Under the pieces are notes generated by a model, which saw only the letters and a program-made list of their open reading frames with translations, did not search any database and was not told the DNA's origin. This document shows positions 14,031-32,128 of a stretch of 64,000 bases of DNA, piece after piece. Within the stretch, counting starts at the first letter, position 1. The number at the start of each line of letters is the position of its first letter. The translations under genes and the position numbers were made by a program. This stretch comes from a virus: positions 62,001 through 126,000 of IMG/VR virus record IMGVR_UViG_3300037452_000118. One strand, 5' to 3'.

Positions 14031-15004
14031 GCGGTTCTGGTGGATTCCAGCAGCAGGCGTTCCCCCAACCTTCTATGGCGGTGGCGGGCGACTTCGCCAG
14101 CCAGAACCCGTACTTCACCTACGACGCCGGCCCCGGCGGCCTCGTCGCCGGCGTCGGCGGCCTGACGGTCGGGCGCTTCGCCTGGGCCTACCCGCCGTCG
14201 GACCCCGACGGCACGCCGACGATCGCGCTGAACTCCGGCAGCGGCCCGGTCTCCGGCTTCGTCCACCGCGAGCAGCAGGCGCTCATCACGCCCTACCTCG
14301 CCGTCGCCTCGCAGGTCGTCCCGGTGGGCTACGAGGCCACGCTGTGCACCGGCGGCGACTTCTGGGTGGTCAACGACGGCACCTCGCAGGCGCTCCCGCA
14401 GAGCCCCGGCCAGGCGGCGATGAAGGCCTACGCCAACCTCGCCACCGGCAAGGTCAGTTTCGCGCTGACCGGCGCGCCGACGAACGCGGCGACCTCGACG
14501 GCGTCCTCGATCGCCGCGGCGTCCTCGACGTTCACCGGCTCGATCACCGGCAACGTGCTGACGGTCACCACGGCGCCGACGACGACGCTCCAGCCCGGCG
14601 CGACGATCACCGGCACCGCGGGCACCATCCCGGCGACGACGCAGATCGTCTCGCAGCTCAGCGGCTCCGTCGGCGGCATCGGCACCTACCTTCTCAACAA
14701 CCCGGAGGGCAACTACGCCTCCGGGCCGCTCACGGCGACGTGGGGCATCCTCACCGTCGGCGGCTCCGTCACCGGCACCTTCGCGGTGGGCGAGACGCTG
14801 TCCGGCACCGGCGTGGCGGCGAACACCAACATCACGGCGCTCGGCACCGGCACCGGCGGCGCCGGCACCTACTACGTCAACAACAACGCCGTGGTGGGGT
14901 CGTCCACGATCAACGTCGTCGGCAACGTCGAGACGAAGTGGATCGCGATGTCGAGCGGCCTGCCCGGCGAGCTCGTCAAGATCAGCGATCACGCCCTCGG
15001 GTAA
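14027..15004 (+). CDS. Structural cement / head decoration protein with two inserted beta modules
   Basis: 325 residues from ATG 14027 (AGGAG ribosome site 9 bases upstream). The N-terminal part (MAVAGDFASQNP, then GGLTVGRFAWA and HREQQALITPYLA) resembles the capsid cement protein found next to DUF2184 capsids. Residues about 168-300 consist of two copies of a glycine-rich beta module that also occurs in four other virion proteins of this phage. The final residues (WIAMSSGLPGELVKIS) resume the cement fold. Confidence 0.78.
   Translation: MSGSGGFQQQAFPQPSMAVAGDFASQNPYFTYDAGPGGLVAGVGGLTVGRFAWAYPPSDPDGTPTIALNSGSGPVSGFVHREQQALITPYLAVASQVVPVGYEATLCTGGDFWVVNDGTSQALPQSPGQAAMKAYANLATGKVSFALTGAPTNAATSTASSIAAASSTFTGSITGNVLTVTTAPTTTLQPGATITGTAGTIPATTQIVSQLSGSVGGIGTYLLNNPEGNYASGPLTATWGILTVGGSVTGTFAVGETLSGTGVAANTNITALGTGTGGAGTYYVNNNAVVGSSTINVVGNVETKWIAMSSGLPGELVKISDHALG
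14528..14739 (+). repeat. Beta-module copy 1 (cement protein)
   Basis: Begins FTGSITGNVLTV and runs through IGTYLLNN. The pattern is a GSI-GNVLTV start, then a G-T-I turn, then a GG-GTY-V end. Confidence 0.7.
14740..14923 (+). repeat. Beta-module copy 2 (cement protein)
   Basis: GILTVGGSVTGTFAVGETLS, then GVAANTNITALGTG and GAGTYYVNN. At DNA and protein level it is closest to copy 7 in the sheath gene. Confidence 0.7.
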
Positions 15005-15046
15005 CAGAGCTGATTTGACCCTGGGATCAAAATAGGAGCAACGGCG

Positions 15047-16141
15047 ATGAATTTGCAGGAAGCCCGGACGAAGTTCCAAGAGCACAAGCCGATGCTCGAG
15101 GAGCGGGGCGTCTTCCTCCCCGGCGTCACGATGTACCTGCCGGACGAGTGGAAGAAGGACTGGCGGCTCGCGATGGACGCGCAGCCGACGCTGTCCACGG
15201 ACCCCAGCTCGGGCATCCCGTCGCTGCTGACGACGGTCATCGACCCGAAGGTCATCCGCATCGTCTTCACGCCGCTGAACTTCGCCAAGATCCTCGGCGA
15301 GCAGAAGGCCGGCGACTGGCTCGAGGAGACCCGCATCTTCCCGGTCATCGAGGAGACCGGCGAGGTGTCGAGCTACGGCGACTTCAACAACAACGGCCGC
15401 GCCGGCGTCAACCTGAACTTCCCGAACTTCCAGGCCTACCTCTTCCAGACCTTCGTCCGCTACGGCGAGCGCGAGCTGGAGAGGGCCGGGCTGGCGAAGA
15501 TCAACTACGTCTCCGAGCTCAACGTCTCGGCGTCGGACCTGCTGAACCGGTACCAGAACCTCAGCTACGCCTTCGGCATCAACGGGCTGCAGAGCTACGG
15601 CATCATCAACAACCCGTTCCTGTCGGCCTACATCACCCCGGCCACCAAGGCGAACGGCGGCACGGCGTGGTTCACCGCGGGCGGCGCGCCGAACGCCACG
15701 GCGAACGAGGTCTACAACGACGTCGTCGCGCTGTTCAACAAGCTGATCTCGCTGACCAACGGCACGGTCGAGCTCGACGCCAAGTGCACGCTCGTGATGG
15801 CGCCGATCTCGGCGCTGGCGCTGCGCTTCGCCAACACCTTCGGCGTCTACGTGAAGGACCTCCTCAAGGAGGGCTTCCCGAACATGGAGGTCATGACGGC
15901 GCCGCAGTACGGCCAGAACACCTCGACCAACCCGCAGGGCTACTCCGCGGCCGGCAACGCGATGCAGCTGATCGTCAAGGACATCGCCGGCCAGGAGGTA
16001 GCCTACGCGGCCTTCAACGAGAAGCTCCGCGCCCACAAGATCATCCCGGAGCCGTCCGCCTGGCAGCAGAAGATGACGTCCGGCACCTGGGGGACCATCA
16101 CCAGGATCCCGATGGGCGTCGTCGGGATGCTCGGCATCTGA
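15047..16141 (+). CDS. Major capsid protein, DUF2184 type
   Basis: 364 residues. It matches the DUF2184 major capsid family of myophages (KVIRIVFTPLNFAKILGEQK about 65-84, then ENTSTNPQGYS and a C-terminal KMTSGTWGTITRIP). An AGGAG site precedes ATG 15047 and a rho-independent terminator follows at 16170-16198, consistent with very high expression. It is the most abundant virion protein expected. Confidence 0.88.
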   Translation: MNLQEARTKFQEHKPMLEERGVFLPGVTMYLPDEWKKDWRLAMDAQPTLSTDPSSGIPSLLTTVIDPKVIRIVFTPLNFAKILGEQKAGDWLEETRIFPVIEETGEVSSYGDFNNNGRAGVNLNFPNFQAYLFQTFVRYGERELERAGLAKINYVSELNVSASDLLNRYQNLSYAFGINGLQSYGIINNPFLSAYITPATKANGGTAWFTAGGAPNATANEVYNDVVALFNKLISLTNGTVELDAKCTLVMAPISALALRFANTFGVYVKDLLKEGFPNMEVMTAPQYGQNTSTNPQGYSAAGNAMQLIVKDIAGQEVAYAAFNEKLRAHKIIPEPSAWQQKMTSGTWGTITRIPMGVVGMLGI

Positions 16142-16169
16142 TCTTTTCGACCCGGCCTGCCTGGCTGAG

Positions 16170-16198
16170 GCCGCCCCTGCGAATCGGGGGCGGCTTTT
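16170..16198 (+). terminator. Rho-independent terminator after the capsid gene
   Basis: GCCGCCCC (16170-16177) pairs with GGGGCGGC (16187-16194), a perfect 8-bp GC-rich stem with a 9-base loop, followed by TTTT. It lies 29 bases after the capsid stop codon. Confidence 0.85.
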
Positions 16199-16275
16199 CC
16201 GTTCGCTGGTGACAAAGCCCGCGCGACGGAGTATGGGTGAACCCCAGTGGAAACCCGCGATCCGGAGAATCACCG

Positions 16276-16848
16276 ATGGCGACGCCGAAGAGGAAGCAGC
16301 CGACCCCCGCCGCGAAGTCGGTCATCGACGCCCCCCACGTACCGCCGGCCGCGCGGCCGACCCGCTCCTACGCCGGCGGCAAGGTGACGGTCTGCAGCAA
16401 GCTCCCCTTCGCGCTGGAGCTCCAGCTCTGCGAGCCGACGCAGGTCCAGATGCGCTACAAGCAAGAGGCTTGGTTCGAGCAGGTCTTCGCCAAGACCGGA
16501 CCCGTCGTCGTGATCCAGGGCACCAACTACCCGATCGGCGCGCCGCCGGAGGGCGTTGTGTGGCCGGAGCGGCCGACGATGGCCGGCGGCTACGCGCTGA
16601 CGTTCGGCGTCGACGCCGACTTCTTCGAGGTTTGGCTGGAGCAGAACAAGACGACCGACATGGTCAAGAACAAGATGATCTTCGCCCAGGAGAAGGTCGA
16701 TGACGCCAAGGCCGAGGCGGTCGAGAACAAGTCGCGCGACAGCGGCTTCGGCCCGCTGCGGCCGGACAATGACAAGCGGATGCCGAAGAAGACCCGCGTC
16801 AACCCGATGAGCCGGCCGGCGGAAGACGCGCTGCTCGCCGACGCCTGA
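16276..16848 (+). CDS. Hypothetical head protein
   Basis: 190 residues from ATG 16276 (GGAG 8 bases upstream). A basic N-terminus is followed by a beta-rich domain containing GPVVVIQGTNYPIGAPPEG, and a charged C-terminus. Its place directly after the capsid gene fits a head completion or decoration role. The family is not recognised with certainty. Confidence 0.7.
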   Translation: MATPKRKQPTPAAKSVIDAPHVPPAARPTRSYAGGKVTVCSKLPFALELQLCEPTQVQMRYKQEAWFEQVFAKTGPVVVIQGTNYPIGAPPEGVVWPERPTMAGGYALTFGVDADFFEVWLEQNKTTDMVKNKMIFAQEKVDDAKAEAVENKSRDSGFGPLRPDNDKRMPKKTRVNPMSRPAEDALLADA

Positions 16849-16861
16849 CGGGAGGGGCCAG

Positions 16862-17356
16862 ATGGGTCCCCCGGCCGCGCCGACGGTCACCTTCGACCCC
16901 GCGGCCTTCATCGCCGCTTTCCCGGACTTCGCCGGCTGCTCCGCGCCGCAGCTGCAGGGCTACTTCAACCGGGCGACGCTGCTGTTCGCCAACGCCGGCT
17001 GGACCGGGGCGCTGCCGCAGGCGGCGACGCTCCTCGACCTCCTCACCGCCCACATCGCCTGGCTCAACGCGCCGCGCGACGCCAACGACAACCCGTCCTC
17101 GCAGGGCCAGCCGGCGTCCCCGCTGGTCGGCCGCGTCACCAACGCCAGCGAGGGCTCCGTCTCCGTGCAGGTCGACATGGGCGAGGCCGACGCCGGCAGC
17201 CCGTCGCAGGCATATTTTATGCAGACCAAGTGGGGGGCGGAATTTTGGGCCGCGACCGCCCAATTCCGCACCGCGTTCCCGGTCATCAGGCCCCGCGTCG
17301 CGCCCGGGCTCGCCGGCAGCTACCCGTTCTTCCCGCGCGGCAGGCGCATCTACTGA
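16862..17356 (+). CDS. Head completion / connector protein, DUF4054-like
   Basis: 164 residues. The pattern FDPAAFIAAFPDFAG near the N-terminus, LLDLLTAHIAWLN in the middle and a final YPFFPRGRRIY matches DUF4054-type adaptor proteins that dock on the portal. It follows the capsid block as expected. Confidence 0.75.
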   Translation: MGPPAAPTVTFDPAAFIAAFPDFAGCSAPQLQGYFNRATLLFANAGWTGALPQAATLLDLLTAHIAWLNAPRDANDNPSSQGQPASPLVGRVTNASEGSVSVQVDMGEADAGSPSQAYFMQTKWGAEFWAATAQFRTAFPVIRPRVAPGLAGSYPFFPRGRRIY

Positions 17357-17370
17357 GGGAGGCCGTGGCG

Positions 17371-17568
17371 ATGGCCGAGGCCATGAAGAGTCACCGCTTC
17401 GTGTGCGCGGCCTGCCGCGCCGAGACCGTCGTCAAGAACTCCCTCTACGCGGCGGCGAACGTCGCGGTCGGGGCGCTGGGATGGGGGATCGGGCGCCACC
17501 CGAAGCAGCCCGGCGACTTCTGCCTGCAGTGCCCGAAGTGCTTGGCGCCCGCCGCAGAGGCGGCCTGA
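17371..17568 (+). CDS. Small zinc-ribbon-like protein
   Basis: 65 residues from ATG 17371 behind a GGGAGG site. It has two CxxC pairs (CAAC and CPKC) flanking a glycine/alanine segment that could be a membrane-like helix (AANVAVGALGWGIG). Unknown function; metal binding is inferred from the cysteines. Confidence 0.65.
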   Translation: MAEAMKSHRFVCAACRAETVVKNSLYAAANVAVGALGWGIGRHPKQPGDFCLQCPKCLAPAAEAA

Positions 17569-17605
17569 GATGGCGACGATCAGAAAGCCATGATAAACTC
17601 CGCAG

Positions 17606-18343
17606 ATGATCGCACTCCGCAATCGCGCTGGTATTTATCGGATCCGGATTGATCGTCCCGGATTGCCGCCGAAGTTCTACATCGGCCAAGCCGCCAAGTT
17701 TCGCGTTCGCAAAGCAACTCATTTTCGAGATTTGCGCAAAAATAAGCATTGCAACTCATTTTTGCAGAGAGCTTATTTGAAGTATGGCGAAAATGCTTTC
17801 AGTTTCGAAATTATAATAGTCTGTCCAAAAGACAAAGAAATGCTGAACTTCTATGAACAATTGATTTTGGATACTTATGATGGAGCGATTGTCTACAATA
17901 TTCTTCGAGAATGCGTATATTCCAATCTCGGTCGATCACAGTCGGCGATTACTCGTCAAAAAATTTCAACGAAACTTACAGGACTCAAACGAACAGAAGA
18001 ATATCGCGAAGAGTGCAGAAAGCGCCAGATTGAGCGTATGAGCGACCAATCGAAACGTGATGCTATAGCTGAAAAAGTCCGCAAGATTATGGAAGATCCA
18101 GAACGTAGAGAATCTGCGGCTCAATTGCTGCGTAGCATGCGATCATCGCCAGAGCATATGGATTTTATGAGGTCATTTCTTATTGGTCGCACGGTACCGC
18201 AGGAACAAATTGATCGGGCGCGGGAAACATTCAAGAAAAATTATATTCCAAGGCCGGGACGAAAACTATCCGCAGAAGAAATTGCTCGGCGACAGGCTAC
18301 ACGACTAGCTAATCGTCAAGCACAAGGGATTGACAGGTATTAA
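17606..18343 (+). CDS. GIY-YIG homing endonuclease, AT-rich
   Basis: 245 residues. GIYRIRID and KFYIGQA form the GIY and YIG strands, followed by the YLKYGENAFSFEII and YNILREC segments typical of the family, then helical DNA-binding repeats (RSQSAITRQKISTKLTG). GC content is far below neighbouring genes, which marks recent arrival. It is inserted between two connector genes. Confidence 0.87.
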   Translation: MIALRNRAGIYRIRIDRPGLPPKFYIGQAAKFRVRKATHFRDLRKNKHCNSFLQRAYLKYGENAFSFEIIIVCPKDKEMLNFYEQLILDTYDGAIVYNILRECVYSNLGRSQSAITRQKISTKLTGLKRTEEYREECRKRQIERMSDQSKRDAIAEKVRKIMEDPERRESAAQLLRSMRSSPEHMDFMRSFLIGRTVPQEQIDRARETFKKNYIPRPGRKLSAEEIARRQATRLANRQAQGIDRY

Positions 18344-18345
18344 AG

Positions 18346-18795
18346 ATGGCTAAAATTGTAGGAGGGCAAAAATTGGCCGCGGCGCTGGCCAAAATCTCGA
18401 AGGGCGTGAGCCAGCCGGCGGTGCTCCGGGTCGGATTTTTGGCCGGCGGAACTTATCCTGACGGCACTTCGATCCCGCTTGTCGCCGCTGTCAACGAATT
18501 TGGTGCGCCGTCGCGCGGGCAGCCACCTCGGCCGGCGTTCCGCAATATGGTTGCGGCCAAAAAGGGGGAATGGCCATCGGCTATTGCCGGCCTTTTGAAA
18601 GCCAATGATTACGATGCTGTAAAGACGCTGCAACAGGCTGGCGAGGCCATTGCCGGGCAGCTCAAGCAGTCTATTATACAGATTACCTCTCCTCCTCTGA
18701 AACCGAGTACGATCAAGAGGAAAGGGTTCGACAAGCCTTGGATAGAGACGGGGCACCTCCTTAACTCCGTCGCGTATGAGGTCAAGACAAAATGA
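18346..18795 (+). CDS. Tail completion / neck protein, HK97 gp10-like
   Basis: 149 residues. The NEFGAPSRGQPPRPAFRNMV segment (about 46-65) and the C-terminal KPWIETGHLLNSVAYEV are diagnostic of the gp10-like virion morphogenesis family that seals the head-tail junction. It lies between two homing-gene insertions and overlaps the following one by 4 bases. Confidence 0.85.
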   Translation: MAKIVGGQKLAAALAKISKGVSQPAVLRVGFLAGGTYPDGTSIPLVAAVNEFGAPSRGQPPRPAFRNMVAAKKGEWPSAIAGLLKANDYDAVKTLQQAGEAIAGQLKQSIIQITSPPLKPSTIKRKGFDKPWIETGHLLNSVAYEVKTK

Positions 18796-19481
18796 CATTT
18801 ATTGATCTGACCGGGAAAAAATTTGGTCGCTTGACAGCTATCCGCCGCGTTGAGAATCGAGGTCATCGTCGCCCGCGCCCTCATTGGCTTTTCAGATGCG
18901 ATTGCGGAAATGAGGTAATCCGATCTGCTGAACGCGTCAGAGAAGGGCGCACAAGATCGTGCGGATGCGCGTGGGTAACGCCTCATAAGCATGGTCATAG
19001 TTATGATGAGAATGGCCAACAATCTCGCACCTATAGAGCTTGGGCCAATATGAAAACCCGCGTTAGACCCGGCAAAGAATGGAGTCGATATTACGCTGAC
19101 AAGGGGATTACGGTTTGTGAACGATGGGAAAAAGATTTTCGGGATTTTTTAGCCGACATGGGTGAATGCCCGCCAGGCATGACCCTTGATCGTATTAACA
19201 ACGATGGCAATTATGAGCCTGGAAATTGTCGTTGGGCGACTACTGCTGAACAGAACAGAAATCAAAGTCGCACAAAATTAGTGCCAATGAAGGACGATGA
19301 GATTTGTTTAATGGACGCCTGCATTCGGGCCGGTATAAATTATACGACCGTTCGGAGCCGCATAAATAATGGAATGAGTATAGAAGAGGCGCTGTCAATG
19401 GCGCCTCTTAAACGGACTCGACGCAAACTGTCGCTTGATGTGATGGTTTTAGAACGCGGTTCCGAATGGATGATGTATTGA
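18792..19481 (+). CDS. HNH-type homing endonuclease (GYEPGN subfamily)
   Basis: 229 residues. An N-terminal zinc-binding part (CDCGNE, then CGCAW) is followed by an HNH-like core (LDRINNDGNYEPGNCRWATT, then EQNRNQSR) and a C-terminal helix-turn-helix-like tail. A relative with the same architecture lies at 57679-58335. It is AT-rich. Its start overlaps the preceding stop (ATGA), and it directly precedes a gene without a normal start codon, which may be a consequence of the insertion. Confidence 0.82.
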   Translation: MTFIDLTGKKFGRLTAIRRVENRGHRRPRPHWLFRCDCGNEVIRSAERVREGRTRSCGCAWVTPHKHGHSYDENGQQSRTYRAWANMKTRVRPGKEWSRYYADKGITVCERWEKDFRDFLADMGECPPGMTLDRINNDGNYEPGNCRWATTAEQNRNQSRTKLVPMKDDEICLMDACIRAGINYTTVRSRINNGMSIEEALSMAPLKRTRRKLSLDVMVLERGSEWMMY

Positions 19482-19506
19482 TCTTGGTCGACCGCAGGAG
19501 GCGGAA

Positions 19507-20097
19507 ATCAATCTTCACTCGATCGTAGCCGGCGCCGTAGGCGCCATCAACCCGCGCATCTACGTCGCGGTCCGGGTCAGCGTCGGCCAGACGACGGCCG
19601 CCGACGGCACGCCGCGGCCGGCCTACGCGACGCCGGGGTCGTTCGTCGGGAGCATCGCTGGCAACACGCTCACCGTCTCCTCCGTCGCCTCCGGGGTTCT
19701 CCAGCCTGGCCAAGCCATCTTCGACGGCTCCGGCGCGGTGCTCCCGGGGACGACGATCGTCGGCGTCGGGAGCGGCGGCGGTCCAGGCACCTACGAGGTC
19801 AGCGAGGAGCAGAACGTCCCGTCGACCGCGATGCAGTCGTCGCTGACGCTGCTCGCCCAGGCGCAGGCGCTGAGCACCCGCGACCTCCGCCAGATCGAGA
19901 TGCTGAACCTCCAGGGCACGCTCAAGGCGTTCTACGTCAACGGCGCGCTCGACGGCGGCGTGCGGGTTCAGCTCAAGGGCGGCGACCTGCTCACGCTCCA
20001 GGACGGCAGCGTCTGGCTGGTCACTATCGTGCCGGAACCGTGGGTGATCACCGCAGGCTGGACGAAATTGATCGCCACGCTCCAGACCGGGGCATAG
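19507..20097 (+). CDS. Connector-region protein with one inserted beta module; start codon appears to be ATC
   Basis: About 196 residues. AGGAGG at 19497-19502 is followed 4 bases later by ATC AAT CTT CAC (19507), where related proteins would begin M-N-L-H; no ATG, GTG or TTG lies in frame between the stop at 19471 and position 19738. The C-terminal half (LSTRDLRQIEMLNLQGTLKA, then KGGDLLTLQDGSVWLV) resembles neck proteins of alphaproteobacterial myophages. Either AUC is used as a rare start or the base call or assembly is wrong at 19509. Confidence 0.7.
   Translation: MNLHSIVAGAVGAINPRIYVAVRVSVGQTTAADGTPRPAYATPGSFVGSIAGNTLTVSSVASGVLQPGQAIFDGSGAVLPGTTIVGVGSGGGPGTYEVSEEQNVPSTAMQSSLTLLAQAQALSTRDLRQIEMLNLQGTLKAFYVNGALDGGVRVQLKGGDLLTLQDGSVWLVTIVPEPWVITAGWTKLIATLQTGA
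19637..19839 (+). repeat. Beta-module copy 3 (connector-region protein)
   Basis: SFVGSIAGNTLTVSSVASGV, then LPGTTIVGVG and GPGTYEVSEEQNV. It sits between YATPG and the conserved LAQAQALSTRDL segment, so it looks inserted in a loop. Confidence 0.7.
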
Positions 20098-20161
20098 TGC
20101 GCGTCACGGCGCGATGTAGTAATGATTCCGGCCGTCGACATTTTCGGAAGGGATCGCGCAA

Positions 20162-20545
20162 ATGAAGAAGCTCTCGCTCGCGGTGGCCGCAGTGCTGCCG
20201 CTGCTCTGCTCTGCGGCGGGGTCGCAGACGCCGATGGTCGGCGTCCCGTGGGTGCCGCTGGGCTTCTGCCAGCTCTCGCCGACCGCGGCGACGAAGCTGT
20301 CGGCCTGCAGCATCAACAACGTCGTCGGCATCCCGGCCGGGGCGAACCTAGTCGTGGTCAGGGCGGAGGGCCAGACCGTGCGCTACCGCGACGACGGCAT
20401 CGCGCCGAGCTCCGGCTCCGGGCAGCCGATCCTGACCACCGACCCGCCGTTCGTCTACGAGGGCAACCTGGCGGCGCTCCAGTTCATCCAGGCCAGCAGC
20501 TCGGCGACGCTCGACGCGACGTTCTACAAGATCCCGGCGCAGTGA
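20162..20545 (+). CDS. Small secreted protein of the connector operon
   Basis: 127 residues. A Sec signal peptide (MKKLSLAVAAVLPLLCSAAG) is followed by a beta-rich mature part with two cysteines (about 41 and 54) that could form a disulphide. Export of a protein encoded among connector genes is unexpected. It could act in the periplasm or be a virion part with a membrane-like leader. The family is not recognised. Confidence 0.65.
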   Translation: MKKLSLAVAAVLPLLCSAAGSQTPMVGVPWVPLGFCQLSPTAATKLSACSINNVVGIPAGANLVVVRAEGQTVRYRDDGIAPSSGSGQPILTTDPPFVYEGNLAALQFIQASSSATLDATFYKIPAQ

Positions 20546-21523
20546 ATGGTCGCGATCTCCCCGACGCAGTCGAACGTCCAGCAGGCGCTCATCGCCTTCC
20601 TGGGCGCGGTGCTGCCCGGCCTCCCCGGCCAGCCGCCCGCGGTGTTCGTCGGCTCGATCGCGGGGAACGTCCTCACCGTGGCGCCGCTGCCGGGGAAGGT
20701 GCCGGTCGGCATCCAGGGGACTGTCCAGGTCAACGCGCCGCTGCTCGGGCTCGGCGTCGCGCCCGGAACGACGATCTCGGCGCAGCTCACCGGGGCCGGG
20801 GGCGTCGGCACCTACCAGGTCTCGATCTCCCAGACCGTCGACGCGGCCACGATGTCCACCGGGGTCTCCGCGGTGCCCGGCCAAGTCAACCGGGTGCCGG
20901 AGCCCGTAAACCCGTTTTTCGCGATCGCCACGCCGATCAGGATCGAACGGCTGCGGACCAACGTCGACGCCTCGGCGGACGTCAAGCTGGTGGGGTCGAT
21001 CGCGGGCGGCGTGCTGTCGGTCTCGCAGGTCGTCTCCGGCCAAGTCCAGGCCGGCGCCGCGCTCTTCGGCACCGGCGTGGTGCCGAACACCGCGGTGACC
21101 GGGCTCATCTCGGGCGTCGGCGGCACCGGAACCTACGCGGTCTCGCCCTCGCAGAGCGCGGCGGCGCAGACGATGTCGGCGGGGGCCAAGACGCTGACGC
21201 AGTCGGCGGAGATCACGGTCCAGGTGGATTTTCATTCAAGCGACACGATGGCCGGGGACTTCGCGCAGACCGTCTCGACGTGCCTGCGCGACGAGTTCGG
21301 GGTCAACTTCTTCGCCGGGCTGGCGCCCCCGCTGAACGGGGTCGTGCCGCTCTACGCCGACGACCCCCGGCAGGCCCCCTTCGTTAACGCCGAAGGGCAA
21401 TATGAATATCGGTGGACGCTCGACGTCTGCCTCCAGATTTACCAAACGGTGCAGGTCCCATCACAGTACGCCGACTCCGCGACCGTCGCGGTGGAAGACG
21501 TCAACGCGCTTTACCCGCCCTAG
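20546..21523 (+). CDS. Tail terminator-like protein (LIC_12616 family) with two beta modules
   Basis: 325 residues. Without the two modules, the remainder (ALIAFLGAVLPGLP at the start, QVNRVPEPVNPFFAIATPIR, then SAEITVQVDFHS and YRWTLDVCLQIYQTV) matches the phage neck/tail-terminator family often labelled LIC_12616. It starts directly after the preceding stop. The modules occupy residues about 33-105 and 147-212. Confidence 0.75.
   Translation: MVAISPTQSNVQQALIAFLGAVLPGLPGQPPAVFVGSIAGNVLTVAPLPGKVPVGIQGTVQVNAPLLGLGVAPGTTISAQLTGAGGVGTYQVSISQTVDAATMSTGVSAVPGQVNRVPEPVNPFFAIATPIRIERLRTNVDASADVKLVGSIAGGVLSVSQVVSGQVQAGAALFGTGVVPNTAVTGLISGVGGTGTYAVSPSQSAAAQTMSAGAKTLTQSAEITVQVDFHSSDTMAGDFAQTVSTCLRDEFGVNFFAGLAPPLNGVVPLYADDPRQAPFVNAEGQYEYRWTLDVCLQIYQTVQVPSQYADSATVAVEDVNALYPP
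20642..20860 (+). repeat. Beta-module copy 4 (tail terminator)
   Basis: VFVGSIAGNVLTVAPL, then GVAPGTTISAQLTG and GVGTYQVSISQTV. Confidence 0.7.
20985..21181 (+). repeat. Beta-module copy 5 (tail terminator)
   Basis: LVGSIAGGVLSVSQVVSGQV, then GVVPNTAVTGLISG and GTGTYAVSPSQS. Confidence 0.7.
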
Positions 21524-21603
21524 CATTTGTCGTGCGCCCCGCGCCGTGTTAATTGGTGCGCGGTGCGGTGCGCCGACTCAGGGGCGCCAAGGGAGACTTC
21601 GCG

Positions 21604-23553
21604 ATGTCAACGATCCCGGCAAGCACGATCGTCAGCGTCGTCCCGAGCGTGCTCGCCGCCGGCGGCACCGGCCTGACCGGCACCGGCCTGATGCTCACCC
21701 GCAACACGCGGGTTCCGGTCGGCACCGTCGCGAACTTCGCCAACCAGGCCGCCGTTTCCGCCTTCTTCGGCGCCAGCGACGCGCTCACCGCCGAGGCCGG
21801 GATATACTTCGCCGGCTTCACCGGGGCGTCGATCCAGCCGTCGTCGCTCCTGATGGCGCAGTTTCCCGCGACAGCAGTCGCCGCCTACCTCCGCGGCGGC
21901 AACATCTCCGGCCTGTCGCTGCCCCAGCTCCAGGCCATCAACGGCACGCTGACCGCCGTATTTGAGGGCTACAGCCGCTCCGGCAACGTCAACCTGGCCG
22001 CGGCGACCAGCTTCTCCAACGCCGCCACGCTCATCCAGACCGCGCTGAACTCCGCGCTGCCGAGCGAGGCCAGCGTCACCGGTACGATCGCGGCGCAGAC
22101 CGCCAGCTTCGTCGGCTCCATCGCCGGCAACGTGCTGTCCGTGACGCAGGTCACCGCGGGGCCGATCGTGACCGGCGGCGCGCTCAGCGGCTCCAGCGTC
22201 GCGGCGAACACCACGGTCACCGGCCAGCTTACCGGTACGCCGGGCGGTATCGGAACGTACGCCGTCTCCGTCGCCCAGATCCTCGCCTCCGAGGCGCTCA
22301 CCGAAACCTACGGCCTGCTCAACGTGACCAACGTGGCCTCCGGCGCGCCCGCGATCGGGCAGGCGCTGTCCGGCACCGGGGTCGCCGCGAACACGTCGAT
22401 CGTCGCGCTGGGTACCGGCGTCGGCGGGACGGGGACGTACTACGTCAGCCCGTCGCAGTCCGCTGGCTCCGGGGCGATGACCGGCGCCGCGATCGCGCTC
22501 GCCGTCACCTACGACTCGGTCTCCGGGGCGCTCGTCGTCACCTCCGGCGTCAACGGTCCGGCCTCCACGGCCGCCTTCGCCACCGGCACCGCGGCGGCGC
22601 CGCTGCTGCTGACCTCCGCGACGGGGGCGGTACTGTCGCAGGGCGCGGCCCCGCAGACGCCGGCGGCCTTCATGACGGCGCTGATCGGGCAGAACGTGAA
22701 CTGGGTCAACTTCATGACCCACTTCGACCCCGACGGCGGCTCCGGCAACGCGGTCAAGCAGCAGTTCGCGGCGTGGAAGAACACCGCGCTGGGCGGCAAC
22801 CGCTTCGGCTACTTCTGCTGGGATCCCGACGCCAGCCCTGCGGCGTCGAACCCCGCCGCAGCGAGCCTCGGCCAGATCCTCAAGGCGAACAACGATTCCG
22901 GCACGCTGCTGATCTGGGAGGGCGGCGCCACCGTCGACACCGGGCTCTGCGCCTTCGCGCTCGGGCTCGCGGCGTCGATCAACTACCAGCAGACCAACGG
23001 CCGCACCGACTTCGCCTTCCGCCAGGGCGCCGGCGAGATCGCCAACGTGACCGATATCAACACGGCAACGAACCTGCTCGCCAACGGCTACTGCTTCTAC
23101 GGCGCCTACGGTGCCGCGAACGCCTCGTACGTCTGGTTCCAGAACGGCCAGATCACCGGCCCGTTCGCGTGGGCGGACAGCTACCAGACGCAGGTCTGGC
23201 TCAACAGTTTCTTCCAGACCCAGCTACTGGCGTTGTTCCAAAACTCGCTCTCGGTGCCGTTCACTCAAGCTGGCGTTTCGCTCATCCAACAAGCGTGTCA
23301 GACCGTCATCCAGCAAGGCCTCGCGTTCGGCGCCTTCGCTCCGAATACGCTGACTGCATCGCAAGTCGCGGAGGTCAACAACATGGCCGGCGCAAATATT
23401 GCCGGAACGCTGCAGGCTCAAGGTTATGCTTTGGTCATCAATATCCCCAGCCAGATAGTACAGGCGGCGCGCGGACCTTGGCCGATGCAGTTTTTTTACA
23501 TCGACCGCAATTCGGTGCACTCGCTCGACTTGTCCTCGGTCTTGGTGCAATAG
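21604..23553 (+). CDS. Tail sheath protein, DUF3383 type, with two beta modules
   Basis: 649 residues from ATG 21604. The N-terminal region (TRVPVGTVANFANQAAVSAF, then FGASDALTAEAGIYFAGF) and the C-terminal part (VWFQNGQITGPFAWADSYQT and FYIDRNSVHSLDLSSV) match the DUF3383 family, the contractile sheath of many myophages. Residues about 167-296 are two copies of the glycine-rich module, probably displayed on the outside of the sheath. It is followed at once by the tube gene, the standard sheath-tube order. Confidence 0.85.
   Translation: MSTIPASTIVSVVPSVLAAGGTGLTGTGLMLTRNTRVPVGTVANFANQAAVSAFFGASDALTAEAGIYFAGFTGASIQPSSLLMAQFPATAVAAYLRGGNISGLSLPQLQAINGTLTAVFEGYSRSGNVNLAAATSFSNAATLIQTALNSALPSEASVTGTIAAQTASFVGSIAGNVLSVTQVTAGPIVTGGALSGSSVAANTTVTGQLTGTPGGIGTYAVSVAQILASEALTETYGLLNVTNVASGAPAIGQALSGTGVAANTSIVALGTGVGGTGTYYVSPSQSAGSGAMTGAAIALAVTYDSVSGALVVTSGVNGPASTAAFATGTAAAPLLLTSATGAVLSQGAAPQTPAAFMTALIGQNVNWVNFMTHFDPDGGSGNAVKQQFAAWKNTALGGNRFGYFCWDPDASPAASNPAAASLGQILKANNDSGTLLIWEGGATVDTGLCAFALGLAASINYQQTNGRTDFAFRQGAGEIANVTDINTATNLLANGYCFYGAYGAANASYVWFQNGQITGPFAWADSYQTQVWLNSFFQTQLLALFQNSLSVPFTQAGVSLIQQACQTVIQQGLAFGAFAPNTLTASQVAEVNNMAGANIAGTLQAQGYALVINIPSQIVQAARGPWPMQFFYIDRNSVHSLDLSSVLVQ
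22102..22303 (+). repeat. Beta-module copy 6 (sheath)
   Basis: SFVGSIAGNVLSVTQVTAGP, then VAANTTVTGQLTG and GIGTYAVSVAQI. Confidence 0.7.
22304..22490 (+). repeat. Beta-module copy 7 (sheath)
   Basis: YGLLNVTNVASGAPAIGQAL, then GVAANTSIVALGTG and GTGTYYVSPSQS. It is closest to copy 2 in the cement gene. Confidence 0.7.
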
Positions 23554-23994: not shown

Positions 23995-23996
23995 GA

Positions 23997-24220: not shown

Positions 24221-24222
24221 GC

Positions 24223-24893: not shown

Positions 24894-24924
24894 GATTCGG
24901 CAAATACAAAATAGGAGACAACAG

Positions 24925-25137
24925 ATGGGTCCCGGTGAACAACTTACAGTCGCTGATCTGATCAAAGAACTGCAAAAATTTCCGATGGATGGAAAATTAG
25001 AAATGAGGGACATCAGCGTCGTTACCAAGGATGGCGCCGATCGTCCCAAGCTGATCCTCATCGTCCATGACCACGAGATGGACCCGGTTTTCCAATTTAC
25101 GGGGCCGTTTGAGCGCGGTTTCAGGAGCAAGCCATGA
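24925..25137 (+). CDS. Hypothetical protein
   Basis: 70 residues behind an AGGAG site. It is acidic, with a DLIKELQKFPMDGKLEM start and a beta strand LILIVHDHEM. It overlaps the next gene by 4 bases. The function is unknown. Confidence 0.65.
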   Translation: MGPGEQLTVADLIKELQKFPMDGKLEMRDISVVTKDGADRPKLILIVHDHEMDPVFQFTGPFERGFRSKP

Positions 25138-25691
25138 ATCGCAGATCAATCGTCAAGGTGCTGGCCGCCGTCCTTCCCGCCGCCGTAGTTAGCAAGTTTG
25201 CAGCGGCCGAACCGGAAGCATCAACGCCTAACCATATTCGGAAATATGAGATGGAACTGGACAAGCAGCGCGATGGGAAGCTGCCACCAGTTATTTTCAT
25301 GTCGCTACCACTGAATCGCGATGGCAGATGGTATCCGTCATACGAACCGGATACTGTGATGCACATCGAAGTCGCAGCATCAATAAACTGCACGATCGCC
25401 TTCGATACGCCGAGCAAGAGCGGCAAAGGTACCTATCATCAGTATTTTATGTCGGTTCCGCAGATGGTAAAGAACTGGCACGATCCGAATTGGCGCCAAT
25501 ACTATGGTATGCCGCGCTTCAATATCGTCGATAGGGAGCCGGATCAAATTGAAGCCAATCATAAACTTTGGGAAGAATGTGAAGCAGGCGGCATCCCGCT
25601 CAAACAGCGACCGATAGATCTACAGGTTGAGCCGACGATAGCTAACTATCGTGCGCTCGATGAGCGTATTCTAGAGGATATTTTCGGATAG
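25134..25691 (+). CDS. Hypothetical protein with a Tat-like leader
   Basis: 185 residues. The start MNRRSIVKVLAAVLPAAVVS has a twin arginine and a hydrophobic stretch ending AAA, suggesting export by the Tat or Sec route. The mature part is hydrophilic with no recognised motif. It sits between the chaperone and tape measure genes; lower GC than neighbours suggests an accessory gene. Confidence 0.65.
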   Translation: MNRRSIVKVLAAVLPAAVVSKFAAAEPEASTPNHIRKYEMELDKQRDGKLPPVIFMSLPLNRDGRWYPSYEPDTVMHIEVAASINCTIAFDTPSKSGKGTYHQYFMSVPQMVKNWHDPNWRQYYGMPRFNIVDREPDQIEANHKLWEECEAGGIPLKQRPIDLQVEPTIANYRALDERILEDIFG

Positions 25692-25703
25692 GGGTAAAGG
25701 AAC

Positions 25704-27128
25704 GTGGCCGTCCTAGACTCGCTCGTCTTGGAATTTTCTCTCGATCCCAGCAAGTTCGAGCGCGGGCGGGAACAGATTGAGTCGGATGTCAAAAAACTGA
25801 AGGAAGGGACGCAGCGCGACGCCGCAGAAACCGAGGCGTCGACCAAGAAGCTCACCGAAGTTTTCACCGGGCTGAAGCGCGAGTTCCTCGGCTTCCTCGG
25901 CATCGCCGTCGGCGGTGCCGCGGCCCGGCAGTTTTTCGACTTCCTGGTCAATCTCGACGCCTCGACATCTCGTCTGAGCCGTACGCTCGGCATCAATATC
26001 TCAGAATTAAATGCTTGGTCGATGGCGGCCAAACAGTTCGGTGGTACTGGCCAAGAAGTCGCCGGTACCATCCAGAGGCTAGGGCAAGAGATATGGAGTT
26101 TTAGATTCGGCGTCCCCAGCAATCTCCCGGGCCAGCTTAATCAACTCGGAATTGACGCTTTCGACGAAAAACGTAACCCAAAAAGTGGTGTGCAGGTATT
26201 ACGCGATCTAGCTGATTGGGCAGATCGAAACCAAATGCCGATGGCTGGCAAAGCAGCATTTTTGCAGCGCGTAATTGGCCTCGACGAAACGACCATCAAC
26301 ATGATCATCCGCGGCCGCGCGGAGCTGGAAAAGACGCTCGCGACGGTGCGGCAGAGCGAAGCGGAAATGAAGGAGGCCGGTCGCACGGCAGAGGAGTTTC
26401 AGAAAAATTGGGCGACGATTGAATCGGGGGCGATTAACGCAGGGCGCGCTATCGCAGGCCCCTTCATGAGGTCGCTGATTGACGCCGTTGCCAAGTTGAA
26501 AGAATGGACAGGTCTGTTAGACAAAAAAAAAGATCTGTCCTCGTCGTTTCTGCTGGGTGAGGGTTGGGGTACTACTGAGCCTGAAGCGCCATCTGGCAAA
26601 GCCGCGCCGGGGAGAGGAGGATCGAACTGGGGCAATTTCCTCTCTGGCCTGTCCTTTCTCGAATCGTCGCAGACTGGCGGCGGCAACGCTGGCAGCACCG
26701 CGCAAGGATTTTTTCAGTTTCTCAGAGGGACCGCCGCAAGGGCTCGATCTGCCGGTATTGCCGACCCACGATTCGGAAACTATGCGAACCAGGCAGACAG
26801 GACGAAGCGGTACATCGAGAAGTTCTATCCCGGCGCGGCGGCGGCAATCGAAAAGGGGGACTTCAAGTCAGCATCGGCCGCATTGAACAAGGAATGGCCT
26901 AGCCTGCCCGGGGGAAGCCAGCCACAGAGCGCCGCGCGCTATTCGACCTTCGCTCAAGAGCTTCAAGGCGGCGGCCCGCGGCCGCCGGGAGGCGGCGGCG
27001 GAAACATCACCGTGCAAAATATGAACGTCTATTCCAAAGCCGACGACGCGGCCGGGATCAGCCGCGACATCAAGAGCAACCTCGAACGGAATCAGTTCAC
27101 GGCGCAGGTGCCGCAGGGGACGCAGTGA
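25704..27128 (+). CDS. Tape measure protein with an embedded muramidase-like domain
   Basis: 474 residues from GTG 25704. The N-terminus is coiled coil (ERGREQIESDVKKLKEG), followed by a hydrophobic helix (GFLGIAVGGAAA about 66-77). From about 315 to 410 comes a lysozyme-like region (SGLSFLESSQTGGGNAGST, AQGFFQF, then KRYIEKFYPGAA), whose SFLES glutamate is the likely catalytic residue. The family sets tail length and helps cell-wall passage; at about 0.15 nm per residue this one predicts a short tail near 70 nm. Confidence 0.75.
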   Translation: MAVLDSLVLEFSLDPSKFERGREQIESDVKKLKEGTQRDAAETEASTKKLTEVFTGLKREFLGFLGIAVGGAAARQFFDFLVNLDASTSRLSRTLGINISELNAWSMAAKQFGGTGQEVAGTIQRLGQEIWSFRFGVPSNLPGQLNQLGIDAFDEKRNPKSGVQVLRDLADWADRNQMPMAGKAAFLQRVIGLDETTINMIIRGRAELEKTLATVRQSEAEMKEAGRTAEEFQKNWATIESGAINAGRAIAGPFMRSLIDAVAKLKEWTGLLDKKKDLSSSFLLGEGWGTTEPEAPSGKAAPGRGGSNWGNFLSGLSFLESSQTGGGNAGSTAQGFFQFLRGTAARARSAGIADPRFGNYANQADRTKRYIEKFYPGAAAAIEKGDFKSASAALNKEWPSLPGGSQPQSAARYSTFAQELQGGGPRPPGGGGGNITVQNMNVYSKADDAAGISRDIKSNLERNQFTAQVPQGTQ

Positions 27129-27790
27129 TGGCGAACATCGAGCTGCTTGTGGCCGACGCCGCCGACCTGTTCCTCGGCGCCCTGCTGGGACCGTCGTGGG
27201 GCATCTACCAGAACGGGCAAGCCGTCATCCAGCCGGCGAACCAATTCAGCGGACTGGTCACGTCGGCGCTGAGCACGCTATCGGACATCGCCTCCATCAT
27301 CGGGGTTCCCGGCCTTGTTCCGGTCGTCGCGTCGACGGTGTCCTTCGACTTCGCGCAGGACTGGCCGATCTCAAATTATCCGCAGGAACAAGGCGCATTC
27401 CAGAGTTACAACAAGGTAACGTTGCCCTACGACATCAAACTCCGGATGACGTGCCAGGGAGACGAAGCAACTCGCCAGGCCTTTCTGAACACCTGCATCG
27501 CCATCGCGAACGCGCCGGCGCCGACGGTCTTTGATATCCAGACGCCGGAAATCGTCTTCACGAGCTGCAGCGCAACGCACATCAGTTGGCGCCGGGAATC
27601 CGATCATGGTGCCACGCTGATAGTTGTCGAACTCTGGTTCCAGAAAATTGCGGTGACCTCAAGTACGACGTTCGAAAACACCCAGCAGCCCGGAGATGCC
27701 TCGCCTCAATCGCTCGGCAACGGCCAAGCGAAGGCGCCGGGCCAAGACATCAATCAACAGCTCACGGCGGGCACATTGGCGGTCCAATAA
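27128..27790 (+). CDS. Baseplate/tail protein, hypothetical
   Basis: 220 residues; ATG 27128 shares its A with the tape-measure stop. The N-terminal hydrophobic part is followed by a beta-rich region with DWPISNYPQEQGAFQSYNKV, a phrase common in tail proteins that sit between tape measure and baseplate plug in P2/Mu-like myophages. Exact role unknown. Confidence 0.7.
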   Translation: MANIELLVADAADLFLGALLGPSWGIYQNGQAVIQPANQFSGLVTSALSTLSDIASIIGVPGLVPVVASTVSFDFAQDWPISNYPQEQGAFQSYNKVTLPYDIKLRMTCQGDEATRQAFLNTCIAIANAPAPTVFDIQTPEIVFTSCSATHISWRRESDHGATLIVVELWFQKIAVTSSTTFENTQQPGDASPQSLGNGQAKAPGQDINQQLTAGTLAVQ

Positions 27791-28110
27791 TGCTCATAGT
27801 CCCCTTGCAAACGCTGCCTAACCAAACGCTTCAGGTCCAGCTCAACGGCCAAGCCTGCACGCTGAATGTCTTCCAATATGCTTACGGGCTTTTTACCTCG
27901 ATCACGGTAGGGGCGATACCGATCGTCAACAGCGTGATATGCGAGAATTTGGTGCGGCTGGTACGCGACGTGTATCTTGGCTTCGTCGGCGATCTTGTAT
28001 TCGTCGATACGCAGGGCAGCGAAAACCCAAACTATACCGAACTCGGTACGCGATGGCAGCTCGTCTATCTCGACCCCGCTGACCTTGCCGCTCTCAACAT
28101 AGCGGGGTGA
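27790..28110 (+). CDS. Baseplate plug protein (DUF6983-like)
   Basis: 106 residues. VPLQTLPNQTLQVQLNGQAC at the start and LVRLVRDVYLGFVGDLVFVD in the middle are typical of phage baseplate plug proteins. It overlaps the preceding stop by one base and precedes the hub gene, the usual order. Confidence 0.8.
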   Translation: MLIVPLQTLPNQTLQVQLNGQACTLNVFQYAYGLFTSITVGAIPIVNSVICENLVRLVRDVYLGFVGDLVFVDTQGSENPNYTELGTRWQLVYLDPADLAALNIAG

Positions 28111-28111
28111 C

Positions 28112-29131
28112 ATGGTCACCCGCATCACGATCAACAAGGCGTCGCCGGCCGCGGTCCAGCAGCGCAGCCTGTCGAGCTTCACTCAAAAGCTGATCAGCGT
28201 CTCGATTCAACTGGCCGACAATCCCGGTACTAATCAGCCTAATTTCTTCAATCTGCCCGACGGGTCACAGGCATCATCGGCGACCTTTTCCAACCCTACT
28301 ACCGGTCAGCAGTTGCGCACCAGCGTGAGGATTCAAAATTCGGGATCACCATCCTACAGCGCCGCGCAAGTTCGTATCTGGGGGCTGCCGCTATCGGTAG
28401 TGAACCAACTTTCGACGCTGGGTATGCAGCTCAACCTGATCCCGAAAAACAACATCGCGGTGATGGCCGGTGACAGCATTTCCGGACTTTCGACGGTTTT
28501 CACCGGGACCATCCAACAAGCCTACGCCGACTTCAACGCGATGCCGGATACACCGATGTGCTTTGAGTGTCGCTTCGGTCTCGGTCCAGGAACGGCGCTG
28601 GCGAAGCCGGGCAGCTTTCCCGGCTCGCAGAGCGTGGCGAGCATCATGCAGACCTATGCCAAGGCTCTGAGCCTCAATTTCGAGAACAACGGCGTCAACG
28701 GCAACCTTTCAAAGTCATACTTCAAAGGATCGCTGATCGATCAGGTCGCCGCGTGCCGCGACGCCGCCGGCATCGGCGCCGAGTTTGTCGACGGCGGAAC
28801 GACGCTTGCCATCTTTCCAAAGTTTGGTTCCCGCGCGACGCAACCTATCCCGGTTATCTCCGCCCCACTATCAGACGGGACCGGCACGATGATCACTTAT
28901 CCGTCCTACACCCAGCAAGGTATTTTGGTTCACACGCTGTTCGATCCCGCGATCAAGTTCTTCGGACAAGCGCAAGTCCAAAGCAGCCTATACAAGGCGA
29001 GCGGACTCTGGGTAGTGCACAAGCTCGATCTGGCGCTCGATGCCATGCTGCCGAACGGCGAGTGGAAGGCCGATGTCTACTGCTACGCGCCGGGCAACAA
29101 AACCTCGACGCCGATCATGCCGCCGCCATGA
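28112..29131 (+). CDS. Baseplate hub protein
   Basis: 339 residues, mostly beta. It lies between plug and spike genes and overlaps the spike gene by 4 bases. The segments GQQLRTSVRIQNSG, ISGLSTVFTGTIQQAYADFN and GLWVVHKLDLALDAMLPNGE resemble gp27/gpD-like hub subunits of small myophages. The assignment is mainly by context. Confidence 0.7.
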   Translation: MVTRITINKASPAAVQQRSLSSFTQKLISVSIQLADNPGTNQPNFFNLPDGSQASSATFSNPTTGQQLRTSVRIQNSGSPSYSAAQVRIWGLPLSVVNQLSTLGMQLNLIPKNNIAVMAGDSISGLSTVFTGTIQQAYADFNAMPDTPMCFECRFGLGPGTALAKPGSFPGSQSVASIMQTYAKALSLNFENNGVNGNLSKSYFKGSLIDQVAACRDAAGIGAEFVDGGTTLAIFPKFGSRATQPIPVISAPLSDGTGTMITYPSYTQQGILVHTLFDPAIKFFGQAQVQSSLYKASGLWVVHKLDLALDAMLPNGEWKADVYCYAPGNKTSTPIMPPP

Positions 29132-29841
29132 CCCAAACCGCAGACCAAGGCAGCATCGGGGCCAGCCAGCAGGGGCCGAACGACTCCTCGTCGGAGTACA
29201 GCAAGGTCGCCTTCCTGGTCCGCCAGATTCAGGCCCAGCTCGAGATAATGATGCCGGTCGAGGTTGTGACCTTTCATGCCGGCTCCGGCTCGCCGCCGGG
29301 GCCGGGTACCGTCGATGTTCAGCTCCTCGTCAGCCAGCTCGACGGCAACGGCAATGCGGTACCGCACGGCATCGTTTATGGTCTGCCGTATTGGCGACTA
29401 CAGGGCGGTCCCTGGGCCGTGATCCTCGATCCGGCGGCGAACGACTTCGGCTTCATCATCGCGGCATCGCGGGATATCACGTCGGTCCAGGCCAACCCAG
29501 GCATCCAGAACCCGGGATCGCTGCGCAAATACAGCTACAGCGACGGAATTTACCTCGGCGGCATCTTCAACGCCGTCCCGGCGGCGATTCTCTGGCTAAA
29601 GTCTGACGGTACCCTCCAGGTGACCGATGCGCCGGGAAATGTCATAAGCACTTCGGCGGCAGGAATCACGGCGACGCCGGTCAGCGGGGGAGCTTTCATC
29701 GTGAACGGTCCGATCAACGCTACCGGCAAGATCACGGCGCCCGACTTCTCGGACGGCACTGTCATCAGTATCCTGACCCACACGCATGGCGGCGTTCAAA
29801 CCGGTAGCGGTACGACCGGGCCGCCGACGCCGGGGAGCTGA
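29128..29841 (+). CDS. Baseplate spike protein, gpV/Gp138 type
   Basis: 237 residues. An OB-fold N-terminal domain (PVEVVTFHAGSGSPPGPGTV, PYWRLQGGPWAVI) is followed by a beta-helical region and a C-terminal HTHGGVQTGSGTTGPP tip, in which the HxH motif binds iron in membrane-piercing spikes. It forms the trimeric puncturing tip below the hub. Confidence 0.85.
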   Translation: MTQTADQGSIGASQQGPNDSSSEYSKVAFLVRQIQAQLEIMMPVEVVTFHAGSGSPPGPGTVDVQLLVSQLDGNGNAVPHGIVYGLPYWRLQGGPWAVILDPAANDFGFIIAASRDITSVQANPGIQNPGSLRKYSYSDGIYLGGIFNAVPAAILWLKSDGTLQVTDAPGNVISTSAAGITATPVSGGAFIVNGPINATGKITAPDFSDGTVISILTHTHGGVQTGSGTTGPPTPGS

Positions 29842-29847
29842 TGCGCG

Positions 29848-30237
29848 ATGGCAAATGCCTCCCTGCTTTTGGACGCAACATGGGATTTGACGCTCGATAG
29901 CAGCGGGAACATCGCCGTCGTACTGTCGCCGACTTCGCTCGCGCAGGACGCCGCGTCGGCAATCCAAACCTACCTCGGTGAAGTATATCTCGATACCACG
30001 GTCGGCGTGCCGTGGCTGACGCAGGTCCTCGGCGTCAATCCGCCCCCTACGCTGTCGCTGCTGAAGCAGATTTTGGTCACCGCGGCGCTTTCCGCCAACA
30101 CCGAGATCGCATCGGCGCAAGTCTTTTTGACCAGCTTCTCAAACCGTTCCGTTGGGGGCCAGGTCCAAGTGATTAGTACGGCTGGCCAGCTTACCGCGGC
30201 GGACTTTTCCGTGGTGAATCCGCAGGGGGCCGGCTGA
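29848..30237 (+). CDS. Baseplate wedge protein, gpW/gp25-like
   Basis: 129 residues. The order [20 protein letters not shown], then [20 protein letters not shown] and VPW, matches gp25-like wedge proteins. It stands between spike and baseplate J genes, as in P2/Mu-type baseplates. Confidence 0.82.
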
Positions 30238-30238
30238 G

Positions 30239-32128
30239 ATGGCAAACATCGGAACGACGAATGTCCCGGGAATCGTGTGGGGAGCTAATGGCCCGCAGGC
30301 GCCGTCTACCGCGGCTATCCTTGGCGGCGTTCAATCTGACTACAATATAGCCTTCAATATCTCATTCAATTGGAACGGTACGACCCCGCAAGGGCAGTTG
30401 ACGACGACGACCGCTGCACTGCTCGCCAATTACAACCAGGTCCTAATTTACTACGCCTCGCAGGTCGACCCGGCCTTCTCGCAGGGCCGGATGCAGGACG
30501 CCATCCTGCGCATCAACTTCCTCACCCGCAAGCCGGCGCAGTCGACGGTGCTCCAGATTTCCTGCAACGGCGCCGGGGCGTCCATCCCGGCCGGCCCGCT
30601 CGTCTACGGCACCGTCGTCGATTCATCGGGCAACCTCTACCAGTGCACCGGGTCCGGCACGCTGCCCGCGGCCGGCGGCTCGATCGTGCTGTCCTTCGCC
30701 GCGGTCACCCCAGGCCCGATCGCGGTGCCGAGCTCGGTGAAGATATATCAAGCCATCCCTGGGTGGGATTCGGCGGCCGTGATCTCCGGCGTCGTCGGCA
30801 ACAACACGGAAACCTCGCAGCAGGCCGAGCTGAGGCGGCAGCTCTCCGTGGCGGCGAACGCCCGCAATACCAACTCCGCGGTCCTGGGCGCCGTTCTCTC
30901 CGTCCCCGGGGTGCTCGACGCCTACGTCATCGACAACCCGACGAACTCGCCGGCGACGATCGGCGGCTACACCTTGGCGGCGCGCTCGATCTACGTCGCC
31001 GTGACGGGGGGCATCGCGCAGGCAGTCGGCAACGCGATCTGGACGAAGAAGCCGCCTGGCATCCCGATGAACGGCAACACGTCGGTGACGGTGACCGACC
31101 AGAACCCGGCCTACTCGCCGCCCTACCCCTCCTACACGATCACCTTCGAGACGCCGGCGCCGCTGCCGGTCTACTTCGCGGTCAACATCGCCAACAGCGG
31201 CCTCGTGCCGTCGAACGCCGCCGCGCAGGTCCAGACCGCCATCGTCAACGCCTTCAACGGGGCGAACACCGGCTCGAGCTTCACCGGCTCCATATCTGGC
31301 AACGTGCTCAACGTGACGGCCGTGGCGTCGGGGACTATCGTCGTCGGCCAATCGCTCGGCGGGGCCGGCGTCGTCCCCGGCACCACGATCTCGGCGCTGC
31401 TCACCGGGGCCGGGAACGCCGGCACCTACATCGTCAGCACGCCGCAGAACGTCGCCTCGACGGCGATGACTACGGCGCCGACGACGAACTTGACGGTGCC
31501 GCCGAAGGCCAGGATCGGCTCCGTGGTCTACGCCAGCCAGTACGGCGCCGCGGTCGCCGCGCTGGGCTCCTGGGCGGCCGTGAAGTCGATCCTGTGCGGC
31601 TCCGCCAACGACTCCGACGCCGCCTCCGTGGTCGGCTCCATCTCGGGCACCACGCTGACGGTGAGGTCCGTCACGTCCGGCGCGCTCGTCGTCGGGCAGT
31701 GGCTCACCGGGTTCGATTCCAACGGCGCCATCACGCCCGGGACGACGATCGCGGCCTTCAACACCGGGGTCGGCGGCACCGGGACTTACACCGTCAGCAA
31801 CCCGCAGAACCTCGGCGGCGCCATCTTCACGGGGACCAACGGGACCGGGGCCACGCTGACCGCGACCGGGGTCAGCGGCACCGTCGGCGTCGGCGACGTC
31901 ATCTCCGGGATCGGCGTCCCTTCCGGCACCACGATCACCGGCCAACTGTCCGGCACCATCGGCGGCAACGGCGTCTACACGACGTCGGTCCAGACCAGCT
32001 CGTCCGGCGCCACGATCACCTGCGGGATACAGATAACGGCGGTCGCCGCGACCCAGAACTTGGTCGCCGTCGGCATAGCGCAGGAGCCGACGATCGCGCC
32101 TCAGAACATTTCCGTAAGCGTCACATGA
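30239..32128 (+). CDS. Baseplate J/gp47-like protein with three beta modules
   Basis: 629 residues. The first 300 residues match the baseplate J family ([14 protein letters not shown], then [20 protein letters not shown] and [20 protein letters not shown], the last a classic J segment). Residues about 347-411 and 463-597 hold three copies of the glycine-rich module, separated by a conserved J stretch ([20 protein letters not shown]). The starts of neighbouring genes are spaced one base apart or less. Confidence 0.85.
31277..31472 (+). repeat. Beta-module copy 8 (baseplate J)
   Basis: [20 protein letters not shown], then [14 protein letters not shown] and [13 protein letters not shown]. Confidence 0.7.
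31624..31834 (+). repeat. Beta-module copy 9 (baseplate J)
   Basis: [20 protein letters not shown], then [13 protein letters not shown] and [13 protein letters not shown]. Confidence 0.7.
31835..32030 (+). repeat. Beta-module copy 10 (baseplate J), most diverged
   Basis: [20 protein letters not shown], then [13 protein letters not shown] and [11 protein letters not shown]; in tandem with copy 9. Confidence 0.6.

Follow-up and report, generated by a model that had tools for sequence, protein, structure and literature searches.

A small predicted all-beta module inserted ten times in five virion proteins of a contractile-tailed phage

The stretch of DNA analysed in this study, referred to as the window, comprises 64,000 bases (positions 62001-126000) of a virus record of 128,813 bases. 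It encodes structural genes of a contractile-tailed phage, including those for the major head protein (phrog_264), tail completion (phrog_222), the tape measure, the baseplate hub (phrog_196) and the baseplate wedge (phrog_120). Five further structural genes, coding for a cement protein, a connector, the tail terminator, the tail sheath and the baseplate protein J, carry ten copies of a small homologous module (Table 1). The cement gene adjoins the major head protein gene, and the PHROG to which it belongs, phrog_2122, is named “minor head protein”. In the gene identity search, the connector of the window had no family match of its own; its relative in locus L050 is a “head protein” of phrog_1912. 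At the beginning of the connector gene (window 19495-19520), there is no ATG, GTG or TTG where a start is expected, and an ATC lies just behind an AGGAGG; the relative in L091 seems to have a GTG at the corresponding position. The sequence suggests that the ATC at 19507 is the likely start, which would be a rare AUC start. Free-standing genes resembling homing endonucleases lie between the structural genes at 13344-14030, 17606-18343, 18792-19481 and 32200-32787. The last of these has HNH_3 plus AP2, the one at 17606 gave a GIY-YIG match below threshold, and those at 13344-14030 and 18792-19481 were judged by eye only.

Table 1. Module-bearing genes and their modules in the window (bits are leave-one-out profile scores)
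Feature	Coordinates	Strand	Remark
Cement / minor head protein gene, 326 aa	14024..15004	+	phrog_2122, residues 7-166
Module cem1	14525..14737	+	46 bits
Module cem2	14738..14914	+	52 bits; fused directly to cem1, without FxGSIxG start
Connector / head protein gene	19507..20097	+	48% identity to L050 phrog_1912 protein, modules excised
Module conn	19639..19839	+	68 bits
Tail terminator gene, 325 aa	20546..21523	+	PF23961, residues 212-305
Module term1	20642..20857	+	61 bits
Module term2	20984..21178	+	78 bits
Tail sheath gene, 651 codons from 21598	21598..23553	+	PF11863, phrog_205
Sheath insertion, entire, residues 153-300	22054..22497	+	missing in 10/71 complete homologues
Module sheath1	22105..22308	+	71 bits
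Module sheath2	22309..22488	+	64 bits
Baseplate J gene, 629 aa	30239..32128	+	phrog_6, residues 17-351
Module J1	31277..31474	+	80 bits
Module J2	31625..31822	+	60 bits
Module J3	31823..32026	+	29 bits; most divergent, weakest copy

The modules are 59 to 72 residues long and lie between window positions 14525 and 32026, two in the cement protein, one in the connector, two in the tail terminator, two in the sheath and three in J. The profile search gave exactly the number and distribution proposed in the initial annotation of this DNA, and no module beyond these ten was found in the whole 128,813-base record. In a leave-one-out test, a profile was built from nine copies and scored on the tenth, with 2000 shuffles of each copy as the control. 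All ten left-out copies were recovered at 29 to 80 bits (E values from 3.9e-8 to 4.3e-24), far above the best shuffle for each copy (7 to 17 bits). The consensus proposed earlier opens with F-x-G-S-I-x-G; this part does not apply to cem2 and sheath2, each the trailing member of its tandem, which lack the opening. An alignment of all ten modules proved too divergent to serve for a pattern scan.

An AlphaFold2 model of J1 (mde06e4ca102f) was built from 109 natural module copies. The module alone was predicted with a pLDDT of 96.0 and a pTM of 0.83, and it is all strand. In the model of the sheath protein (m3ea740c352f4; pLDDT 87.9 overall and 90-96 through the two modules), the modules are placed between a helix at residues 139-150 and a strand at residues 302-306, and the whole model has matches among solved sheaths, for example the one from Pseudomonas phage E217 (8env/8fvg). 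One long predicted strand, residues 219-249, is common to sheath1 and sheath2, so that the tandem is probably rigid. Using Foldseek, the closest solved fold to J1 was chain 1 (124 aa) of the entry for Arthrobacter phage Bridgette, 8eci (E 3.1e-3, probability 1.00, 25% identity), with TM scores of 0.77 (by query) and 0.47 (by target). This chain, which is read from its length and from PMC13033339 as probably a capsid cement protein, was the sole strong solved match among the 50 best PDB matches of the single module; the weaker ones were mostly chains of ATP-synthase beta, elongation factors and E1 enzymes. When the module profile was compared with PDB sequences, there were chance matches only, and 8eci was absent at E values up to 10. 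Close matches (TM 0.84-0.96) were present among predicted viral structures, both in uncultured phages (HK97 capsid, side tail fibre, tip protein J, P22 gp10-like and pectate-lyase proteins) and in a giant virus (Indivirus collagen-repeat proteins). No chain listed as an Ig domain was among the 50 best PDB fold matches of J1, and no Pfam Ig model matched any module. Judged by Pfam and Foldseek, the predicted fold is not that of an Ig domain.

Relatives of each host gene were fetched from viral contigs. For the sheath, the query was the module-free C-terminal part of the protein, the 80 nearest relatives alone were kept, and 71 complete homologues were obtained; in an earlier locus set, the query had contained modules, hence the module counts were biased. 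Every module in these 71 homologues sits at one common site, with no module in 10 of them, one in 14, two in 36 and three in 11. Such counts vary with the threshold, as the sheaths of L206 and L207, which are 99.8% identical, were counted as having two and three modules, respectively. In module-free sheaths, that of L037 among them, residue 152 is joined directly to residues 301-303. Empty sites were also precise in other host proteins. Both module sites of J are empty in the homologues of L145, L148 and L160 (402-405 aa), where residue 345 is joined to 422 and residue 456 to 597, and the J1 site alone is empty in L092. Cement homologues carry zero to three modules, and in the module-free ones of L128 and L136 (178-179 aa) residue ~159 is joined to 298. 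Terminator homologues carry zero to two modules, the term1 site being without a module in L021, L037, L050, L074 and L092. In the connector of the window and of L091 the module follows AYATPG, and in that of L050 it precedes GAVWLV, some 55 residues further on, even though the window and L050 proteins are 48% identical throughout once the modules are excised. A Nitrospira contig, L174, encodes a J-like protein of phrog_6 with modules at yet other positions.

The suggestion in the initial annotation that the modules are insertions in loops is thus borne out, both by natural module-free homologues of sheath, terminator, cement protein and J and by confident independent folding in the models. It could be argued that each segment belongs integrally to the fold of its own protein, and that the segments are non-homologous and look alike through glycine richness alone, as their composition is indeed biased and rich in glycine. 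However, the profile scores far exceed those of composition-matched shuffles, the isolated module is modelled at a pLDDT of 96, homologues without the module exist at the exact sites, and one connector protein carries it in two different loops. This explanation was ruled out on these grounds; what chance we would still allow it is negligible. The segments are homologous, autonomous, in-frame loop insertions in otherwise recognisable virion proteins.

How did one phage come to carry ten copies? DNA similarity between copies in different genes had been taken to suggest spread by recombination within this genome. Identical codons accounted for 0.58 of the shared residues between genes, versus 0.45 expected from the codon usage of the window structural genes, which would be consistent with a recent spread of all ten copies. 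However, this excess over codon usage vanished when the window copies were compared with cross-protein copies of GC3-matched phages (module GC3 0.92-0.99; window GC3 96%), which gave 0.57-0.64. The protein identity of modules in different host proteins was 0.427 within a genome versus 0.414 between genomes, and all ten window copies were closer to a copy of another phage than to any sister. Recent intragenomic spread was rejected as highly improbable. The DNA similarity between the window copies is due to protein conservation together with the GC3 of 96%. For six of the ten window modules the nearest foreign copy sits in the same host protein, and same-slot modules of different phages share a protein identity of 0.51. 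That the copies are closest to those of other phages, with a codon identity equal to that found with GC3-matched phages, indicates at the sequence level that the window copies are old residents of their slots. Occasional cross-gene transfer is possible in other phages, as cross-gene module pairs with 75-77% identity are present in L159, L097 and L153.

Changes in module content were counted on a tree of sheath sequences from which the modules had been left out. For module presence or absence, the safer measure, at least 6 changes were required, versus an average of 10.6 with shuffled labels, which argues for gain or loss that was repeated yet partly inherited. The number of modules changed 23 times, an upper figure because the counts depend on the threshold. 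By these comparisons, the module has been gained, lost and multiplied at fixed sites over evolution. Evolutionarily speaking, it is dispensable for assembly, and it is kept by most sampled relatives.

At least a dozen virion protein families contain the module. Among other phage groups, the head closure protein Hc3 carries two modules in tandem (63 loci), and a protein of ~325 aa encoded beside Hc3 also carries the module (70 loci). It further occurs in tail fibres and collar fibres of other phages, in a capsid protein of PF25209 (L181), and under a phage portal annotation. When the bacterial genome contigs were searched, the module query gave 29 loci and the sheath query had no match. Prophages of the same family with the module were found in Bosea, Paraburkholderia, Rhodopila and another Acetobacteraceae bacterium. 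A Roseicella GH5 cellulase of 1399 aa (L177, 5163-9359) carries two tandem modules far behind its catalytic domain, and Bacteroidota proteins with the module have T9SS sorting tails and FG-GAP, GEVED or fn3 domains; the cellulase and the T9SS proteins look like cellular secreted proteins. In isolate phages, the consensus module gave no match by tblastn, probably through low-complexity filtering, and native J modules matched six records. No Pfam or NCBIfam model scored above its curated cut-off on the module. PHROG 21413 and PHROG 38233 (tail fibre protein) contain it over about 68 positions. Of the five host proteins, the four other than the connector match these two PHROGs (E values from 2e-26 to 2e-5); the connector of the window has no match to them, and its L050 homologue does. 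Both PHROGs describe whole proteins (595 and 896 positions) in which the module is unnamed, and nowhere in the databases searched (Pfam, NCBIfam, PHROGs and PDB) or in the open-access papers searched was it named as a domain.

Promiscuous domains of virions are believed to adjust the way in which phages adhere to hosts, mucus or surfaces, and the published work found on them concerns mainly Ig-like domains. As described by Fraser et al. (2006), cited here through PMC13033339, phage Ig-like domains are small beta domains in unrelated virion proteins. The initial annotation had compared the module with them, and the comparison is apt for its lifestyle: the module is found in unrelated structural proteins and is missing from relatives, its copy number and position vary between relatives, it is repeated within a particle, and it probably faces outward and may, like Ig-like domains, bind glycans weakly. 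The comparison fails for the fold, which is not Ig. A further difference is that the module copies lie inside their host proteins as in-frame loop insertions, frequently as tandems, and that a single phage has them in five different proteins. The Bridgette chain, the nearest solved fold (25% identity, TM 0.77 over the module), differs in another way, as it is a stand-alone chain of 124 aa and the module is an inserted domain.

We propose that several virion proteins of a myovirus family have acquired, in their loops, one autonomously folding all-beta domain of ~65-70 residues, either as a single copy or as a tandem. Its copies would stand outside on the head, neck, sheath and baseplate and would serve as a surface accessory that is repeated and of low specificity. 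The surface position is inferred from the location of the modules in variable loops. An outward orientation is probable, since insertions of such a size can be accommodated on that side and since additional sheath domains, which are extra beta domains proposed to serve adhesion or stabilisation, lie away from the tube (PMC9230969). The domains described in that paper, which does not mention DUF3383, are mostly Ig-like, unlike the module. A cellulase and secreted proteins resembling adhesins carry the module, which favours a surface-binding accessory role. Together with the precedent of phage Douge, whose head and tail bear Ig-like domains that bind glycans of the host surface (PMC13033339), this also favours weak multivalent binding of surface polysaccharide. 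We place weak multivalent adhesion to polysaccharide, either of the host surface or of the environment, ahead of cementing, and consider the chances that the modules are an adhesive multivalent surface accessory to be about even. The module loops are no more variable than the strands (mean entropy 1.46 vs 1.54 bits), which argues against a diversifying receptor-binding face.

Alternatively, the modules might be structural clamps that, in the manner of capsid cement proteins, lend stability to capsid, sheath and baseplate through contacts with neighbouring subunits. The match to the 8eci chain (TM 0.77 by query) would suit cementing at least as well as adhesion, since capsid cement proteins of Bridgette bridge capsomeres (PMC13033339); one host is itself a minor head protein of phrog_2122, encoded beside the major head protein gene; and extra sheath domains have been proposed as tail cement (PMC9230969). 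However, all four main host proteins have module-free homologues, so the module is not needed for assembly, it also occurs where a clamp would have no lattice to hold, in tail fibres and in enzymes secreted by bacteria, and the role of 8eci chain 1 as cement is read from its length and from PMC13033339. We regard clamping as a possible but less likely role. Another reading is that the modules are near-neutral passengers or form a passive shield; their independent folding and their position in outward loops would make them tolerable. This would agree with zero to three copies at fixed sites and with the lack of a diversifying face, but it does not readily explain why slots and pattern are kept across distant phages (identity 0.51 in the same slot vs 0.41 in other slots), or why 61 of the 71 sampled sheaths retain at least one module, and we consider it rather improbable.

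More broadly, and still as the less probable outcome, this non-Ig promiscuous beta domain might be both a coat of the whole particle and a general extracellular glycan-binding module used by phages, giant viruses and secreted bacterial enzymes. In either case, it is a structurally distinct promiscuous virion domain, outside Pfam and NCBIfam and often present several times per particle. Phages with zero, one, two or three copies at one site are natural experiments, so that the effect of the module on adsorption or stability is directly testable, and the module, being small and modelled with confidence, should lend itself readily to expression and assay.

The homologue of window gene 20162-20545 in L092 (2853-3644) has a module and the window gene has none; this homologue is a sixth host protein within the family. 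In the long fibre protein at 34679-38095, the stretch IVPGDYFNITGMTTVGYNGYFVATTV loosely resembles the module pattern and was not picked up by the module profile. The fibre-like protein at 33480-34649 carries no module in the window, and its homologues in L135, L144 and L153 carry one each.
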